45,154 nucleotides of DNA from Candidatus Woesearchaeota archaeon. GTDB taxonomy: Archaea; Nanobdellota; Nanobdellia; Woesearchaeales; UBA12501. Shown here in pieces: positions 6,574 to 42,345 of this stretch. The notes below the pieces were generated by a model, which had not been told where the DNA came from, did not search any database, and saw only the letters and a list, made by a program, of their open reading frames with translations. The DNA lies in the NCBI GenBank assembly GCA_016180035.1, contig JACPCA010000006.1, forward strand, positions 1 to 45,154, read 5' to 3'. Every line of letters begins with the position of its first letter. Position 1 is the stretch's first letter. The translations under genes and the position numbers were made by a program.

Positions 6574-7212
6574 CTATTTATACTCTCCGCTGCTGCCCGG
6601 CACGTCATAGCTTGAACTGGACGGGGCAGCATCGTAGGTGATCCGCGATTCCCTATTGTCGCGTGGAGTATAATCAGCGCCAGCGCTGGCCATCGAGCCG
6701 TACGACTCCCTCATCCTTGCCTGGCCGCCCTGCTGGAGCTTGCGGATCTCGACATCCACATTGTCTATAGTTCCGACTTTTTCCATGATTTCCAGCTGGA
6801 ACACGGTGTTGCAGCAGATGCACTGGCCGGCGATGATTTTCTCTGCTGTGGCAAAAGCAGATTCGTCGCTTTTTGCTTTTTTACTGTCTTTTTCTTCATC
6901 AGTATCAGGAATCCGATTGGCAGATGGAGAAGGAAGATCGTGATGTTCCTCGCTGGAAACAGGACGCGGCTGGGCTCGCTGGATCGAAGGATGCTCCTGC
7001 CCAAATCCAGGGCTTTCGTGCTGCGTGAAGGAATCATCCAGCAGGAAGTCGATCGTCTTGGAAGAAACAGGGATGCCCTTTCCGTACAGGTGGATGTCCG
7101 ACAGCCTGGAGCGCTTGCACTGCTGATGATGCTTTTCCCACGCCAAGCGCTGCCAGTCCGGCATGGAAAGAGCGTGGGCTGATGCTTCAGCAGGGCGTAT
7201 TTGAAGAGGCAT
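6574..7212 (-). CDS. Hypothetical protein
   Basis: Only long ORF here; TATA-like CTTTATAAAG upstream on the minus strand (~7235-7244). Confidence 0.5.
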   Translation of the reverse strand: MPLQIRPAEASAHALSMPDWQRLAWEKHHQQCKRSRLSDIHLYGKGIPVSSKTIDFLLDDSFTQHESPGFGQEHPSIQRAQPRPVSSEEHHDLPSPSANRIPDTDEEKDSKKAKSDESAFATAEKIIAGQCICCNTVFQLEIMEKVGTIDNVDVEIRKLQQGGQARMRESYGSMASAGADYTPRDNRESRITYDAAPSSSSYDVPGSSGEYK

Positions 7213-7258
7213 GAGAAGATATTATCCCCCACATCTTTATAAAGGTATGTCGTCAAAA

Positions 7259-7521
7259 GGCTCTGTCCCGAATCTTCTCATGGGCGGTGCTGCTGCCAAG
7301 CGACGTGTCCAATATCCTAAGTGGATGCTCGGATACTTGGGATGTGGGCGATTGGCAAACGCGAACAGAGCGCAGCAGCACCGCCCATTTCGGAGGGGAA
7401 TGGCACTGCTGCGCTCCGTCGGCACATATAGCCGGCTGTGACACCGAGTCTTTCATTCATTGACGAGCAATGGATAACTACGCTCGGCAGCAGTGCCATT
7501 CCCGACATTCGGGACAGAGCC
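7259..7521 (+). mobile_element. MITE-like element family A, copy 1 (263 bp)
   Basis: 15-bp perfect inverted ends GGCTCTGTCCCGAAT...ATTCGGGACAGAGCC, flanked by the 9-bp direct repeat TCGTCAAAA (7250-7258 and 7522-7530). Two internal 17-bp perfect hairpin stems: 7280-7296/7372-7388 and 7396-7412/7487-7503. Confidence 0.93.
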
Positions 7522-7566
7522 TCGTCAAAAGCAAAGTTTATTAACTACCCCTCTTTATTATCACCC

Positions 7567-7749
7567 ATGAGCGGCGAAACAGTTATGGTGAAGCGGGACG
7601 CTATTATCGACCTTGTCCGCGTAAAAGATGAATTTGACTCAATAGTCGAATCATTAGAGCTCATGGCTGATTCTGAATTCATGGCGTCTTACAAGAAGGC
7701 AAGGCAGCAAGTAGAAAAAAGAGAGTTTGATGATTGGGATGAGTTATAA
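7567..7749 (+). CDS. RelB-like antitoxin
   Basis: MSGETVMVKRDAIIDLVRVKDEFDSIVESLELMADSEFMASYKKARQQVEKREFDDWDEL; directly upstream of the RelE-like gene. Confidence 0.75.
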   Translation: MSGETVMVKRDAIIDLVRVKDEFDSIVESLELMADSEFMASYKKARQQVEKREFDDWDEL

Positions 7750-7993
7750 TATTCTCCCGACAAAGGAATTTTCCAAAGACTTCAATAGGTTGGATTCTCA
7801 GATACAGAAGAGAATTAAAGAAAAGGTTGAAGAAGCTGCAGAAGATCCAACACGATACAAACATCTCCATTATGATTTAAAAGGAAGTTGTAGATTACGG
7901 ATTGGAAAATGGAGGGTTATTTTTTCCTACAATAGCGAACTTCAAGAGATGTACCTTGAAAAGATTGTCTTTGGCCATAAATACAGGGATTAA
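7739..7993 (+). CDS. RelE/ParE superfamily toxin
   Basis: YNILPTKEFSKDFNRLDSQIQKRIKEKVEEAAEDPTRYKHLHYDLKGSCRLRIGKWRVIFSYN is a typical RelE fold. Confidence 0.9.
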   Translation: MSYNILPTKEFSKDFNRLDSQIQKRIKEKVEEAAEDPTRYKHLHYDLKGSCRLRIGKWRVIFSYNSELQEMYLEKIVFGHKYRD

Positions 7994-8005: not shown

Positions 8006-8536
8006 TTAGTCAGTCTTAGATGAATTCGCGGTAGTGCCTTCGCCATTGCCTGCTGCCGGGCAGTCTACATTCGTCTTGACCTGATTATAGACAAGCTTGT
8101 ACCTGCCAACATCCTTTCGGAAGTCACCGACCTTCTTGAACGCCGTGTCAAAAGCTGCCTGCGCTACCTGAAGGTCTGCCTCATTGCCGCTTGTTTGGGC
8201 AGCCTCGAGAGCATTTGCGGCCTTGAACAGGACTGTTTCACCCTTTGCCAGGCGCTTCTTGGCATTTCCAAAGTCGACTTCTGCCTGCTTGATGACTTCA
8301 TCGCAGGTGAGCGTGTCAGGATTCTTTGGAGTGAACACTTCTTCATTATCGATGTTCCCGATATTAGCAACCTCGTCAGGAATGTCTTCAATGGAAACAG
8401 TCTCGTCAACGCTGGTTCCATCATCATTCTCAGAACCTCCATTGGTCGTGACAATCGTTTCCTTGCTGCAGGCGGAAAGGAAAAGAACACCCACTACAAG
8501 AAGGGCGATGACCAGAAAAGCATATTTCTTTGCCAT
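8006..8536 (-). CDS. Putative lipoprotein of unknown function
   Basis: Signal plus lipobox VLFLSAC; Asp/Glu-rich mature region. Confidence 0.75.
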   Translation of the reverse strand: MAKKYAFLVIALLVVGVLFLSACSKETIVTTNGGSENDDGTSVDETVSIEDIPDEVANIGNIDNEEVFTPKNPDTLTCDEVIKQAEVDFGNAKKRLAKGETVLFKAANALEAAQTSGNEADLQVAQAAFDTAFKKVGDFRKDVGRYKLVYNQVKTNVDCPAAGNGEGTTANSSKTD

Positions 8537-8581
8537 ACCCTATGCAGGGGGGAGGTGGTTTATATTGTTTTTGATTTGGCA

Positions 8582-8843
8582 GGCTCTGTCCCGGATCTCC
8601 TCATGGGCGGTGCTGCTGCCTAGCGACGTGCCCAGGCTTTCCAGCCAATGCACGGATACTCGGTGAACGGTCGAAGAGTAAACGCGAACAGAGCGCAGCA
8701 GCACCGCCCATTTCAGTGGGGAATGGCACTGCTGCGCTCCGTTCACTTATGGAATCGGCCATGAAACCGAGTCTTCAGCCATCGTCCGGGAACGGATGAC
8801 TTCGCTCGGCAGCAGTGCCATTCCCGACATTCTGGACAGAGCC
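8582..8843 (+). mobile_element. MITE-like element family A, copy 2 (262 bp)
   Basis: Termini GGCTCTGTCC/GGACAGAGCC; 9-bp direct repeat GATTTGGCA at 8573-8581 and 8844-8852; same internal hairpins as copy 1. Confidence 0.93.
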
Positions 8844-8892
8844 GATTTGGCACAGGATTAGGTTTAAATATATCTCACCCTCACCCCTCTTC

Positions 8893-16657: not shown

Positions 16658-17668
16658 TCACCCATACCACTTCCTCTTCACTGCATCAATCTTCTTCTCG
16701 TAATGGTAACAGAGGATAAAAAAGAGGATCGCTAAAAGATAGAGTATTCTGTCCCGGCTGTTATTTTGTTCAAGGTTATACCGCTGCAGGGCAGAAGCAG
16801 GGTCTTCATTCGTTACGATTGTCATCGGGGGTATGCCAACAGCGCCTGGTTTTGGCATATTATACGAGAACGAGAAGCCGTGGCCAAGGTCAACACCAAC
16901 AATCATCTTCACTGGATCGTCAATCGCTGTCAAAAAGCCCGTATCAGAAAAAGACACTTCAGAAGCGTGAGAGGCAACCTGTTTTGGAATGATCTCGTAA
17001 ACGATATACGTTCCGGGGAGCGGGCCAATCTCTGTCGTGATCTCGATGCTGTCCTCCATGGCCTGATATGTTTTACGAATAGCTGCCTGGACTATACTAT
17101 CCTGTGGGATCAGTGCATCGTCAATCATCGCTGCAGCAGATGAGCTGTCAATCTCCGGCAGGGAAGAAGGGAGCGGAGGTTGGTTGTGCTGCTCTTCTTC
17201 AACAACTTGAACAGCTGGAGAACTGTTGTCCAAGGCAGAGATGGCATCTCCTTCTTCGGCCATTGGCTGGCCATCAGGGCTTTCAACAGTAGAAGGGAGG
17301 TGAACATCATAATTGTTGATAACGTCGAGCGTGTTGGAAGAGATGTCATACTCGCCGACGTTATTGAAATAGAATCCAGTCACATACCCTTCTATCGTGC
17401 AGCCGGTGATGGAGATGTTCTTCCTGTTTGCTGCAGTGATTGCCGTCCCGCTCCTGTCCCCTCGCAAAACTGTCCCTAGACAGGTGATAGAAATGTCATC
17501 CCCTGAAACAGTCATTCCGTGAGGCAGATAGTACTCTCCACCGCAAAATTGGACTGACGTGCCGATTTCCATCCAGTCCAGGGGGGCAATGCAGCCCTGC
17601 GCTTTTCCAGCGGGAACCAACAGTATGGCCAGCAGCGCAAGAAGCGTGAAGAGGGCTGTTCTTTTCAT
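16658..17668 (-). CDS. Secreted, C-terminally anchored protein with parallel beta-helix (NosD-like) N-terminal region
   Basis: Signal peptide; ISITCLGTVLRGDRSGTAITAANRKNISITGCTIEGYVTGFYFNNVGEYDISSNTL; C-terminal TM ILYLLAILFFILCYHYEKK. Confidence 0.75.
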   Translation of the reverse strand: MKRTALFTLLALLAILLVPAGKAQGCIAPLDWMEIGTSVQFCGGEYYLPHGMTVSGDDISITCLGTVLRGDRSGTAITAANRKNISITGCTIEGYVTGFYFNNVGEYDISSNTLDVINNYDVHLPSTVESPDGQPMAEEGDAISALDNSSPAVQVVEEEQHNQPPLPSSLPEIDSSSAAAMIDDALIPQDSIVQAAIRKTYQAMEDSIEITTEIGPLPGTYIVYEIIPKQVASHASEVSFSDTGFLTAIDDPVKMIVGVDLGHGFSFSYNMPKPGAVGIPPMTIVTNEDPASALQRYNLEQNNSRDRILYLLAILFFILCYHYEKKIDAVKRKWYG

Positions 17669-17955: not shown

Positions 17956-18016
17956 GTCAGAATTGCAGCAATTGTTCTTTATAAATGTTGTTAAGAGCGT
18001 TTTTACTTCAAAAACA

Positions 18017-18215
18017 GGCTCTGTAGAAAATGTTATACTATACGGGGCGCCGCCGTGATTTTCTTGAACGCTCTTTTTTCTTTCCCACCCTGCTTAGGCG
18101 AGGTGGGAAAGAAAAAAGGCCAAGACAAAGTAGACACGGCGGTGCCCCAAATTGTTTTTTTAGCCGAAAACAGCGCTTTGACGACTAAAAACAAAGAAAG
18201 ACTTTCTACAGAGCC
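18017..18215 (+). mobile_element. MITE-like element family B (199 bp)
   Basis: GGCTCTGTAGAAA/TTTCTACAGAGCC perfect 13-bp inverted ends; 9-bp direct repeat TCAAAAACA at 18008-18016 and 18216-18224; central GGGGCGCCGCCGTG/CACGGCGGTGCCCC and CTTTCCCACC/GGTGGGAAAG stems. Confidence 0.92.
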
Positions 18216-18260
18216 TCAAAAACAAAAAGTTTTATATATTAGTATTGGCTATAACAAGTA

Positions 18261-18470
18261 TTGATGCCAATAACCCTTGCCATTACCAGCCACGCCAAAG
18301 AAAGAATGGCAGTTCATGGCATTACTAAGGAACAGGTCAAAATCGCTATTGAGCGTGGCGCAAAAGTAAAGCAGACAGATGGGTACCTTACATCGTTTAC
18401 TTATATCAAGGTAGCATATAAAAAAATTGGAGAAAACACCTATAAGATAAAAACCGTGTTTGTGGACTAA
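18261..18470 (+). CDS. DUF4258-like protein, putative toxin
   Basis: SHAKERMAVHGITKEQVKIAIERGAKVKQTDGYLTSFTYIKVAYKKIGENTYKIKTVFVD. Confidence 0.75.
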   Translation: MMPITLAITSHAKERMAVHGITKEQVKIAIERGAKVKQTDGYLTSFTYIKVAYKKIGENTYKIKTVFVD

Positions 18471-18912: not shown

Positions 18913-19521
18913 TTACTGATACCCTCCTCCTCTTGGGTAGAACCCCAGCTCTTGCGGCGGCGCGAACTGTTTCAGGTCGAAAAACTCCTTGAGGTGGTTC
19001 TGGATCTTGTACACGTCGCCGATGACTGTGTGCTTCAGGGAATCTCTTCTCTTCCGCCAGATGCGCTTGTAGAACAGCTCATGGACATTCTTGAGGAACC
19101 AGTGCTTTTCCCATTCTCCCCCGGGGTCGAGAACAAGGTAGCCATGCAGCACCACTTCAATCTCCCCCTTTTCAACGCGGAGTTTTTTCCCTTCGTGCAT
19201 GACTTCGATGTCGCGGAAGTAGCGGAAGTGGAAGTCCAGATCCATGTGCATGGTGTAATAGCTGGAGCCCTCTTCTTGCTTTGACAGCCGCCACCAGATC
19301 CAGCCAGACTTGCCTTCTCTTTGGTTGGTGGAATGGCGCTCCTGGTAGAGCTTCTCCATGAATTTCCATTTTCCTCCTGCGCCGTACCCTTTATCAACAA
19401 GCCGGTCCCTGGTCTGTCGGTAGAGCTCGGTGAAGTCAAACACGCCCTTGAACTTGACGTTCGTTTCCAGGGCTTCAACAACAATGCCCACACCCTCTTT
19501 TTTGTAAATCTCTTCCGACAT
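18913..19521 (-). CDS. Conserved-looking hypothetical protein
   Basis: Well-formed 202-aa ORF; no confident family. Confidence 0.7.
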   Translation of the reverse strand: MSEEIYKKEGVGIVVEALETNVKFKGVFDFTELYRQTRDRLVDKGYGAGGKWKFMEKLYQERHSTNQREGKSGWIWWRLSKQEEGSSYYTMHMDLDFHFRYFRDIEVMHEGKKLRVEKGEIEVVLHGYLVLDPGGEWEKHWFLKNVHELFYKRIWRKRRDSLKHTVIGDVYKIQNHLKEFFDLKQFAPPQELGFYPRGGGYQ

Positions 19522-19569
19522 CTCAGGAGAGATAGGGGCAACCCTCTTTAAAAATATTATGATTTAATC

Positions 19570-19832
19570 GGCTCTGTCCGGAATATTTCAACGGGCGGTG
19601 CTATTGCCTAGCGCCGTGCCCGAGTTTTCCAGCCAATGGCAGGATACTCGGTTCTGGGTCGGGTAATAAACGCGGACAGAGCGCAGTAGCACCGCCCGTT
19701 TCACGAAGGGAATGGCACTGCTGCGCTCCGTTCACCCATAGAATCGGCCATGAAACCGAGTCTTCAGTCATCGTCCGGAAACGGATGACTTCGCTAGGCA
19801 GCAGTGCCATTCCAGAGATTCCTGACAGAGCC
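19570..19832 (+). mobile_element. MITE-like element family A, copy 3 (263 bp)
   Basis: GGCTCTGTC/GACAGAGCC ends; 9-bp direct repeat GATTTAATC at 19561-19569 and 19833-19841; hairpin arms conserved with compensatory substitutions. Confidence 0.93.
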
Positions 19833-19874
19833 GATTTAATCAACTTTATATACAGATCTTTGTGCTTGACGCCC

Positions 19875-20393
19875 ATGACCTTTGCCTTCGGCCACTTGAT
19901 CGGCGCATGGCTTGCCGGAAAGCTTGCCCAACGTACGAAGCGAGCAGCCATGACCAGGATTGCTTGGGCGCTTCTGCTTGGCGGGGCCATTCTTCCTGAT
20001 GCGGACTATCTTGTGGATTGGACGCTTGGAACACATGGCCATCGCACGCTGACGCACAGCCTTGCCTTTCTCCTTGCCGTGCCCATCATCACGTGCTTCC
20101 TTACCGCAGTGCTGAAGAAAAAGTACCCGTTTTTTCAGCCAAAACTTTATGCCATAGCCATCGGGCTTGGTATTCTCACACATCTTCTTATCGACATGGC
20201 AGAGGGCTTTCCCGGCGTTGCCCTCTTCTGGCCGCACGAGACATGGTACTACTTTTTTGGCTCGGCGATACCCGGCGGCAATGGCATCTTCGAGTCAAAT
20301 GCCGTCCATCATCTGAAAAGGGCAATCGTGGACATGGGGCTTGGAACAGCGTGGATAGGATATTTTGTCTTGAGGGATAGGATACGGTTTTGA
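19875..20393 (+). CDS. YdjM/DUF457-type membrane-bound metal-dependent hydrolase
   Basis: H-x-x-G, LLGGAILPDADYLVDW and GHRTLTHSLAFLL motifs, multiple TM helices; start moved out of the MITE. Confidence 0.85.
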   Translation: MTFAFGHLIGAWLAGKLAQRTKRAAMTRIAWALLLGGAILPDADYLVDWTLGTHGHRTLTHSLAFLLAVPIITCFLTAVLKKKYPFFQPKLYAIAIGLGILTHLLIDMAEGFPGVALFWPHETWYYFFGSAIPGGNGIFESNAVHHLKRAIVDMGLGTAWIGYFVLRDRIRF

Positions 20394-21840: not shown

Positions 21841-22050
21841 ATGACAAAAATGGTTTCTCTTTCGGATGATGCATACAAAACCATTCAAGGGATAAAAGGA
21901 TCCGGTGAGTCTTTTTCTGATGTAGTTCTCCGTATAGTGCGGAAGAAAGGGGATATCATGCGCCTGTTCGGCTGCGCAAAACAAGATAAAGAATTCATCA
22001 GCGGGTTAAAAAAAGCCTACCAAGAGCGCCATTCCCGACATTCAGGATAG
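21841..22050 (+). CDS. VapB-family (DUF217-like) antitoxin, orphan and possibly 3'-truncated
   Basis: MTKMVSLSDDAYKTIQGIKGSGESFSDVVLRIVRKKGDIMRLFG; C-terminus and stop lie inside a MITE end; no PIN gene follows. Confidence 0.8.
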   Translation: MTKMVSLSDDAYKTIQGIKGSGESFSDVVLRIVRKKGDIMRLFGCAKQDKEFISGLKKAYQERHSRHSG

Positions 22051-22054
22051 AGCC
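22028..22054 (+). mobile_element. Solo right end of MITE family A (27 nt)
   Basis: GCCATTCCCGACATTCAGGATAGAGCC versus GCCATTCCCGACATTCGGGACAGAGCC in copy 1. Confidence 0.82.
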
Positions 22055-23329: not shown

Positions 23330-23526
23330 TTGGAGAACGTCTTTCTTTGTTCTTAATCGTCGAACAACGGCTTTCGGCTAAAAAACGTAGATTTGGGGCG
23401 CCGCCGTGGTTTTCTCCGAAAACTTTTTTTTCTTCCCCACTCGCCCGGGCAGGTGGGGAAGAAAAATACCATAACTGCGTTATGGCACGGCGGCGCCCCA
23501 AATCAGGATGACATTTTCCACAGGGC
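23330..23526 (-). mobile_element. Degenerate, inverted copy of MITE family B
   Basis: Reverse orientation of 18017-18215. Core is the 18-bp perfect inverted repeat ATTTGGGGCGCCGCCGTG (23391-23408) / CACGGCGGCGCCCCAAAT (23486-23503); flanks GTCTTTCTTTGTT and GACATTTTCCACAGGGC recognisably match. Boundaries approximate. Confidence 0.8.
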
Positions 23527-40848: not shown

Positions 40849-42345
40849 GTGGCCTTTCGCAACAGAAGCTTTACGGACATCCACTCGCTGACGCGGGAGG
40901 AGATAGAATTCATTCTTGACAAGACTGCCATCATCAAAGCTGCGCTTCTCAAAAAAGACCGCTCCATCTACCGTCTTGCAGACGGCATGGACCTGATGGC
41001 TGCTTCCCTGTTCTACGAAAACAGCACGCGGACGCGGTCCAGCTTTGAGATTGCCGCCAAAAAGCTGGGGGTTGAGGTTACGGGCTTTTCCGGCATCGAA
41101 GGGACATCGGTCAAGAAGGGAGAATCATTGCAGCACACGCTGGACATGTTCCGCGCCTACCTGTGCGATGCTGTCATCATGCGCCACCCGCTCGATGGTG
41201 CGGCAAGGTTCGCTGCGGACTATCTTGATATCCCCATCTTCAACGGCGGGGACGGGAAGAACGAGCACCCGACACAGACCTTGCTTGACCTGTTCACGAT
41301 CCGCGAGCATCTTGGCCGCCTGGATGGCATTGATATCGGCATGGGCGGCGACCTGAAGTATGGCAGGACCGTCCACTCGCTTGCCATCGCCCTCTCGAAA
41401 TTCTCCAACGTGCGCCTCCACTTCTTTTCCCATCCCCTGCTCAAGATGCCGCAGGGCGTCCTTGACTTTCTCCAGCAGAACAATGTGGACTACGTCGAGC
41501 ACGACTCTCTGTACGGCACGCTGGGCGCTTCTGATATCTTCTACCAGACACGCGTGCAGCGCGAACGGATGCCAGATGATGAAGAGTACCAGAAAGCAAA
41601 AGATGCCTGCAGGATAACAGCAGCGCACCTTAGCGCGGCAAAAGAAACCTTTGGCCTGATGCATCCTCTGCCGATCAACAAGGAATATCCGGAAGTCACG
41701 CCAGACGCTGATGCCAGCCCAAAAACAATCTATCGCCAGCAGGCAGGCAATGGGCTTCCGCTCCGGCTGGTGCTGCTGGCCTTGTCCTTTGGCCTGATGG
41801 GAACAGAGTTTCGCGGAAAGAGCAATGGCGTGGAGCAGCGCTCGCCATCGTTCTATACTGATCTATTGGTCGTCAAGAAAGAGCAGAAGACCGAGCAGAA
41901 TCTCAAGCCGATCCAGGGAAGCGGCACGGTGATCGACCATCTTGTTCCAGGAACAGCGCGAAAGCTGATGGACCTGCTGAAGGTGGAGGAGCGCTGCGAC
42001 ATCTATCGCGGCGGCACCGTCCGGCGGCGCAGCAACAGGGACGAGCTGAAGGCTATGCTGATGATTGAGAATCGGAGGCTCACCGACGACGAGCTGCGCA
42101 TGGTCGCTGCGATATCTCCTAAATCCCGCATCAACACGATCACGAACGGTGAAGTGTCTCGAAAGATCGAGCTGCATATGCCAGACATTATCGAAGGCAT
42201 CCCTTACTTGATGTGCACGAACACCGGCTGCATCACGCGGCCAGAACATCACGAGCACGTCACGGCAAAATTCATCCGGGCTGGTGAATCCTTGCTCCGC
42301 TGCTATTACTGCAATGCGATGATGGGTGCAAGGGAACTGTTTTGA
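40849..42345 (+). CDS. pyrBI: Aspartate carbamoyltransferase catalytic-regulatory fusion (PyrB-PyrI)
   Basis: FYENSTRTRSSFE, HPTQTLLDLFTI, HPLPI; C-terminal PyrI with TNTGCITRPEHHEHVTAKFI...LLRCYYC zinc site. GTG start. Confidence 0.93.
   Translation: MAFRNRSFTDIHSLTREEIEFILDKTAIIKAALLKKDRSIYRLADGMDLMAASLFYENSTRTRSSFEIAAKKLGVEVTGFSGIEGTSVKKGESLQHTLDMFRAYLCDAVIMRHPLDGAARFAADYLDIPIFNGGDGKNEHPTQTLLDLFTIREHLGRLDGIDIGMGGDLKYGRTVHSLAIALSKFSNVRLHFFSHPLLKMPQGVLDFLQQNNVDYVEHDSLYGTLGASDIFYQTRVQRERMPDDEEYQKAKDACRITAAHLSAAKETFGLMHPLPINKEYPEVTPDADASPKTIYRQQAGNGLPLRLVLLALSFGLMGTEFRGKSNGVEQRSPSFYTDLLVVKKEQKTEQNLKPIQGSGTVIDHLVPGTARKLMDLLKVEERCDIYRGGTVRRRSNRDELKAMLMIENRRLTDDELRMVAAISPKSRINTITNGEVSRKIELHMPDIIEGIPYLMCTNTGCITRPEHHEHVTAKFIRAGESLLRCYYCNAMMGARELF

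Follow-up and report, generated by a model that had tools for sequence, protein, structure and literature searches.

What moved three homologous units of about 263 bp, each set between two copies of a different 9-mer, into a 45,154-bp stretch of a Candidatus Woesearchaeota archaeon genome (contig JACPCA010000006.1; this whole stretch is called the window below), and what decided where they came to lie? The answer that we consider very probable is that they are non-autonomous fold-back MITEs, mobilised in trans by a promoter-guided DDE-type transposase that recognises terminal inverted repeats (TIRs) of the form GGCTYTGT(CC/AG)nnAAA.

Copies in the window and their surroundings

The three units, all of subfamily A and all on the plus strand, occupy 7259-7521 (copy 1, 263 bp, a two-hairpin fold-back), 8582-8843 (copy 2, 262 bp), and 19570-19832 (copy 3, 263 bp), just as a sequence-only reading of the window had placed them, and are homologous with a mean column identity of 86% over the three copies with flanks. 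Their termini are GGCTCTGTCC...GGACAGAGCC, and here too the earlier description holds, including the single mismatch in the right end of copy 3. The different 9-mers that it had reported around each unit are exact on both sides: TCGTCAAAA at 7250-7258 and 7522-7530 for copy 1, GATTTGGCA at 8573-8581 and 8844-8852 for copy 2, and GATTTAATC at 19561-19569 and 19833-19841 for copy 3. What the sequence-only reading did not contain is a fourth intact copy, two remnants, the two-hairpin fold, and the position relative to promoters. The fourth copy, of subfamily C (18017-18215, plus strand, 199 bp), is a single long hairpin with an AG-type TIR, bracketed by exact duplications of TCAAAAACA (18008-18016 and 18216-18224). 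The remnants are a solo A-type right end (22025-22054, plus strand) and a decayed C-type copy (23331-23526, minus strand) with no recognisable duplication, bringing the window total to four intact copies (three of subfamily A, one of subfamily C) and two remnants.

The intact copies are all intergenic, and all four have a TATA-like box at exactly 15 bp from the element on at least one side, copy 1 on both. To the left of copy 1, the TATA box TTTATAAA (7236-7243, minus strand) stands exactly 15 bp from the edge, with the start codon of ORF 6574-7212 (minus strand) 31 bp beyond it; to the right, the TATA-like box TTTATTAA (7537-7544, plus strand), again exactly 15 bp from the edge, precedes a 60-aa ORF with its ATG at 7567 and then a ParE-like toxin gene at 7727-7993. 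Copy 2 has the TATA-like AATATAAA (8559-8566, minus strand) exactly 15 bp from its left edge, as the promoter of ORF 8006-8536 (minus strand), and a second TATA, TTTAAATA (8863-8870), 19 bp from its right edge. The subfamily C copy has the TATA box TTTATATA (18231-18238, plus strand) exactly 15 bp from its right edge, with an ORF start at 18264. For copy 3, the TATA box TTTTTAAA (19547-19554, minus strand), the promoter of ORF 18913-19521 (minus strand), stands at exactly 15 bp on the left side, and a second TATA, again TTTATATA (19845-19852), at 12 bp on the right, with a YdjM-family gene downstream at 19875.

Three minor observations concern the genes of the window. The small ORF and the ParE-like toxin gene directly downstream of copy 1 (7567-7993) are probably a toxin-antitoxin pair. 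A 69-aa ORF (21841-22050) takes its last residues and stop codon from the solo A-type right end. PyrB (aspartate carbamoyltransferase catalytic) and PyrI (regulatory) are apparently fused in a single 498-aa ORF (40849-42345). A search of the window for RNA families and tRNAs found none.

The family in the host genome and across the order

The host genome assembly (1.08 Mb, 66 contigs, 94% complete; sequence reading covered the stretches around elements) contains 28 matches to the 263-bp unit in a whole-genome search, bearing out the proposal of a multi-copy, MITE-like family. These matches make up subfamilies A (TIR GGCTCTGTCCCGAA) and B (TIR GGCTCTGTCCTAAA), which are ≈72% identical to each other and in which most intact copies have exact 9-bp duplications. 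The TIR scan revealed subfamily C (TIR GGCTYTGTAGAAAA, ≈200 bp) as a third and larger group; the C copy at 18017-18215, used as query, had 73 matches, in many cases both strands of a single hairpin. TIR-like sites number 215 in the host genome versus 46 with a reversed-pattern control and, together with the 28 genome matches, this shows that the family is not due to chance. More than 40 copies in the host genome have verified duplications. No copy carries a transposase, in keeping with the earlier view that none is encoded and that mobilisation is in trans.

The sequence-only reading had taken the differing duplications as evidence of transposition, with the caveat that the 9-mers might belong to a longer ancestral tandem duplication. 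Duplication length was assessed on 86 strict TIR pairs from all loci, chosen regardless of their flanks and mostly 150-300 bp long. The exact repeat is 9 bp in 44 pairs, 8 bp in 3, and 10 bp or longer in 0 of the 86, while re-paired flanks gave 3/17,003. The repeats never exceed 9 bp, and the 9-mers are therefore not part of longer tandem duplications; independent 9-bp duplications are what transposition leaves here. An exact 9-mer was found in 53/84 verified copies, and 8-bp duplications in three copies only, in genomes G033 and G006. Within the 9 bp there is a weak base preference (A at 6-7, C at 9). At two sites the same target 9-mer was used twice (C16:26495-26967 with CTGGACGTC and C61:1-443 with AAAAGAAGC): a second element adjoins the first, with the 9-mer between and after both, beside a TATA.

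Beyond the host, what is shared is the ends. The 84 verified copies across the order have the common TIR GGCTYTGT(CC/AG)nnAAA with differing interiors, and a search for further copies, which the sequence-only reading had recommended, found many in the host genome; sequence family A is limited to the host genome and to weak matches in one congener, G001. The G001 copies have the two-hairpin layout of subfamily A with a different sequence (L060, 9-bp duplication GGTTGGGAT). The TIR class is enriched over the reversed control in G001, G003, G005, G007, G008, G025, G033, and others, and in these relatives the interiors are particular to the species and the duplications mostly 9 bp. Hybrid elements with one CC-type and one AG-type end occur, one in G029 and another in the host genome, and the hybrid L087 has a near-exact 9-bp duplication; one enzyme therefore probably serves both TIR classes. 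When 84,980 species were scanned with the A/B core, six isolated matches turned up, all in unrelated bacteria, and were taken as chance; the core had no match in viral contigs.

Spacing between element and promoter

We scored both flanks of the copies at about 100 offsets with a promoter matrix trained on 39 element-free promoters, to avoid circularity. The best match on either flank falls at 14-17 bp from the element edge in 62/82 copies (3.3 expected), and at exactly 15 bp in 48 of them, forming a spike 1-3 bp wide; among random intergenic sites of the same genome 72/1739 (4.1%) have it at 14-17, which gives a binomial P of about 6e-69 for the copies. With a second promoter score 64/84 copies fit, versus a background of 1.9%, and a TATA-like hexamer is found at 14-16 in 60/83 copies versus 2.4% expected. 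The outward flanks of 74 copies hold 103 TATA-like matches in the 3-bp bin 15-17, versus ≈2 per bin elsewhere.

Outward from the element come the 9-bp duplication, 6 bp that include the BRE, the TATA box, and, ≈30 bp on, the start codon. Aligned targets comprise the duplication, a BRE (A at positions 12-13), and, at 16-23, TTTAWAWA; they resemble ordinary promoters of the host genome, but with a stronger BRE. On promoter-side flanks an outward ORF starts 20-150 bp out in 50/56, at a median offset of 45 (30 bp past the TATA box), and on opposite flanks in 28/47, at a median of 84.5 and widely spread. The genes behind targeted promoters include those for ribosomal protein L11, IF5A, cysteinyl-tRNA synthetase, an NFACT protein, and FKBP.

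Both TIR classes follow the spacing rule, which was seen in at least 10 genomes. Within the host genome 10/17 CC-type and 22/25 AG-type copies fit, and the poorly fitting CC-type copies may be older; in about a quarter of all copies the expected offset holds no TATA. Elements point either way with respect to the promoter, and a test for orientation bias showed none. In the copies with 8-bp duplications (G033 and G006) the TATA box is at or next to offset 14, and the gap between duplication and TATA box stays at ≈6 bp. As a negative control, a high-copy IS of G024 with a similar TIR has 0/8 junctions at a TATA. This IS, with ends GGCTTTGTAGAAAAGTTCAAAATATAG, also breaks many G024 contigs (L117-L122, L089, L114).

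The mechanism we propose is that a DDE-type transposase, acting in trans, recognises the TIR and makes staggered cuts in the target, 9 bp apart or sometimes 8, of which the one nearer the promoter lies 6 bp ahead of the TATA box, within the BRE or at its edge. A cut at this place would put the element just upstream of the promoter and leave the promoter intact; in a compact genome, the benefit would be a site that is safe to insert into. One type of transposase would serve both TIR classes, and its guide would be the TBP/TFB-bound promoter rather than the DNA sequence. The repeated insertion about 15 bp upstream of promoters suggests that the transposase homes on the promoter, in the manner of Ty3.

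It is possible, though we lean against it, that the transposase reads the BRE/TATA sequence or its DNA shape directly, with neither TBP nor TFB involved. The target logo, A at 12-13 followed by TTTAWAWA, and a BRE stronger than that of ordinary promoters are what direct reading would give; that logo is, however, the host promoter motif itself, and nearly all promoter-side flanks (the 50/56 above) lead to an ORF, yet selection would purge insertions in coding regions, so that this argument is not decisive.

Candidate enzymes, known systems, and the fold

Much less probable is the suggestion, made in the sequence-only reading from the termini and the 9-bp duplications, that the elements are MITEs of the IS903 group of the IS5 family. 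The duplications do have the right length and the element TIR resembles GGCTTTGTTGAA, which we take to be the IS903 TIR, but the IS5-type profiles PF01609 and PF13737 have no match in the host genome (G000), one sub-cut-off fragment in G039 being the exception among relatives, and we know of no promoter rule for IS5 elements. The nearest IS that follows the same rule instead pairs an IS1-like zinc ribbon with an IS6/IS240-like DDE domain. A full IS with the element's own ends, which that reading had proposed to look for, was found neither in the host genome nor in relatives, and a transposase with these TIRs was likewise not found in the host genome and up to 40 relatives, mostly fragmented assemblies, using PF01609, PF12762, PF13737, PF13610, PF00872, and a custom four-protein profile. 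PF13610 had no match in the host genome (G000); the only matches of PF00872 (Mutator-type) were partial ones, to IS6-like proteins of G001 and G025. The IS6-like proteins of the relatives are below the NCBIfam IS6 cut-off, the best reaching 124.6 of 125 bits. In several relatives, the stretches around unpaired TIRs held only more MITEs, unpaired ends, or ends of the G024 IS.

The IS with the matching rule is found in G025, of the same order. It is 1005 bp long, its limits are marked by CTTTCTCAG, an exact 9-bp duplication, and a TATA stands at a distance of 14-15 bp; three more of six right junctions in its group have a TATA at 14-17. Its ORFs, a 119-aa zinc-ribbon protein (IS1/IS1595 type) and a 211-aa DDE protein (IS6/IS240 type, 51.7 of 125 bits and so below the cut-off), overlap near a TTTTTTTAAAA run, which suggests frameshifting. 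This fits the layout of the IS1 family (zinc-ribbon ORF, DDE ORF, 9-bp duplication), but the DDE ORF is IS6/IS240-like. The TIRs of the G025 IS (GATATAGTCA in one copy) differ from GGCTCTGT, and it is therefore a relative by behaviour rather than the demonstrated mobiliser of the window elements; the transposase of the latter may well belong to the same IS1/IS6-like group. IS6 TIRs likewise begin GGC-CTGT, and we know of no promoter rule for the IS6 or the IS1 family. The G025 IS departs from IS6 in its two ORFs with a slippery run and a DDE ORF below the family cut-off. Furthermore, IS6 makes 8-bp duplications (PMC7986276), while those of the elements here are mostly 9 bp.

Separately, an orphan IS6-like zinc-ribbon transposase gene is present in G001 (L138 / L278, C49:4332-5225) and in G025 (L267, C33), genomes of different families, with ≈90% DNA identity over 823 bp; no recognisable TIRs surround it, and it may be part of a larger mobile element.

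The yeast LTR retrotransposon Ty3 inserts at Pol III genes, its integration guided by TFIIIB (the TBP/BRF complex), and archaeal TBP/TFB are the homologues of TBP/BRF. Ty3 and the window elements have in common a near-fixed distance from a complex of TATA-binding factors; they differ in that Ty3 is a retrotransposon, while the window elements are DNA transposons for which contact with TBP/TFB is postulated. We consider it an even proposition that the system is order-wide, with an unclassified, frameshifted IS1/IS6-like transposase that attaches to promoters occupied by TBP/TFB and places the element 6 bp upstream of the TATA box, as an archaeal counterpart of Ty3/TFIIIB. Bacteria have Mutator-type elements (TnGBS / ISLre2, p-MULT 3; ISKra4, p-MULT 4) that duplicate 8-9 bp of target and whose insertion sites lie 15-17 bp upstream of the -35 region in sigma-A promoters. 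Guerillot et al. 2014 suggested, on the model of Ty3, a contact with the initiation complex; for the archaeal ISH6 they reported no more than an AT-rich target (PMC3942029). The likeness extends to the duplication length, the conserved terminal G/C of the inverted repeats, the fixed promoter spacing, and insertion in both orientations by elements with near-perfect inverted repeats. The differences are clear as well: there, the -35 of sigma-A promoters and Mutator-type transposases; here, an archaeal BRE/TATA and non-autonomous elements, with no Mutator-type transposase found by PF00872.

No precedent for an archaeal element with fixed TATA spacing was found in the open literature searched, and, going by that literature, the present elements are the first transposable elements of archaea at a fixed BRE/TATA distance. 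Promoter-guided integration, known for sigma-A in bacteria and TFIIIB in yeast, would thus reach a third transcription system; for compact genomes it may be a general way of finding safe sites, and contact of the transposase with TBP or TFB becomes directly testable. Each insertion also marks a promoter to the base pair, a natural tool in uncultured archaea: dozens of host promoters, including those of L11, IF5A, and cysteinyl-tRNA synthetase named above, have an element at their upstream edge.

Fold-back MITEs such as Correia/NEMIS, ERIC, and Sulfolobus SM1-SM4 are, like the window elements, short, multi-copy, strongly folding, bounded by TIRs, and near genes; the SM families owe their mobility to known ISs of Sulfolobus. 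Single strands of the present copies form much more stable folds than shuffled sequences do (z -9.8 for DNA, -11.2 for RNA), and the subfamily C copy of the window has a likewise strong fold. Base-pair-precise promoter spacing is not described for the earlier families in the parts of the source consulted (PMC10969869). Across 15 A, B, and G001 copies, which represent few independent lineages, 98.6% of stem cells are paired and 18/61 pairs are changed on both sides, a pairing reached by 0/500 shuffles, with slid pairings below 46%. That the units are chiefly regulatory modules or structured RNAs which recombination has scattered, as this stable fold (z about -10) and the 18 compensated pairs might suggest, is nevertheless very improbable: they have target-site duplications, TIRs, and both orientations to the promoter, the same ends enclose different interiors in each species, and there is no Rfam match. 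In the long stems most swaps are clean and G-U intermediates few, a pattern at least as compatible with maintenance as DNA palindromes as with RNA selection and, we infer, pointing to the former.

The least probable reading, that insertion is random or AT-biased and selection keeps only harmless copies upstream of promoters, would accommodate the intergenic position of the intact window copies and the sparing of promoters by insertion upstream of the BRE, but it predicts broad distances and is already largely refuted by a 1-3 bp spike with 48/82 copies at exactly 15; the 4% of random intergenic sites at 14-17 and the two second insertions into an identical 9-mer also speak against it. The constant gap in the copies with 8-bp duplications, the reuse of the 9-mer, and the negative result for the G024 IS favour a ruler over selection.

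Lastly, some elements contain further hairpins. C-type elements of 400-440 bp have unrelated hairpin-rich inserts in the loop (L067, at C19:13365-13798 and 16828-17263; L070; L082). A ≈48-bp double-hairpin insert, AACAGGAAA...TTTCCTTAGTTGCGCTCGCTTCGCTCGGCAAC, occupies the same stem point (GC/TGCC) of one hairpin or the other in elements of different subfamilies (L075:830-960, L080:1190-1430, L086 in the C64:23559 region, and L007), and is perhaps a nested mobile hairpin; a similar sequence is found in G007 elements (L216, L100).
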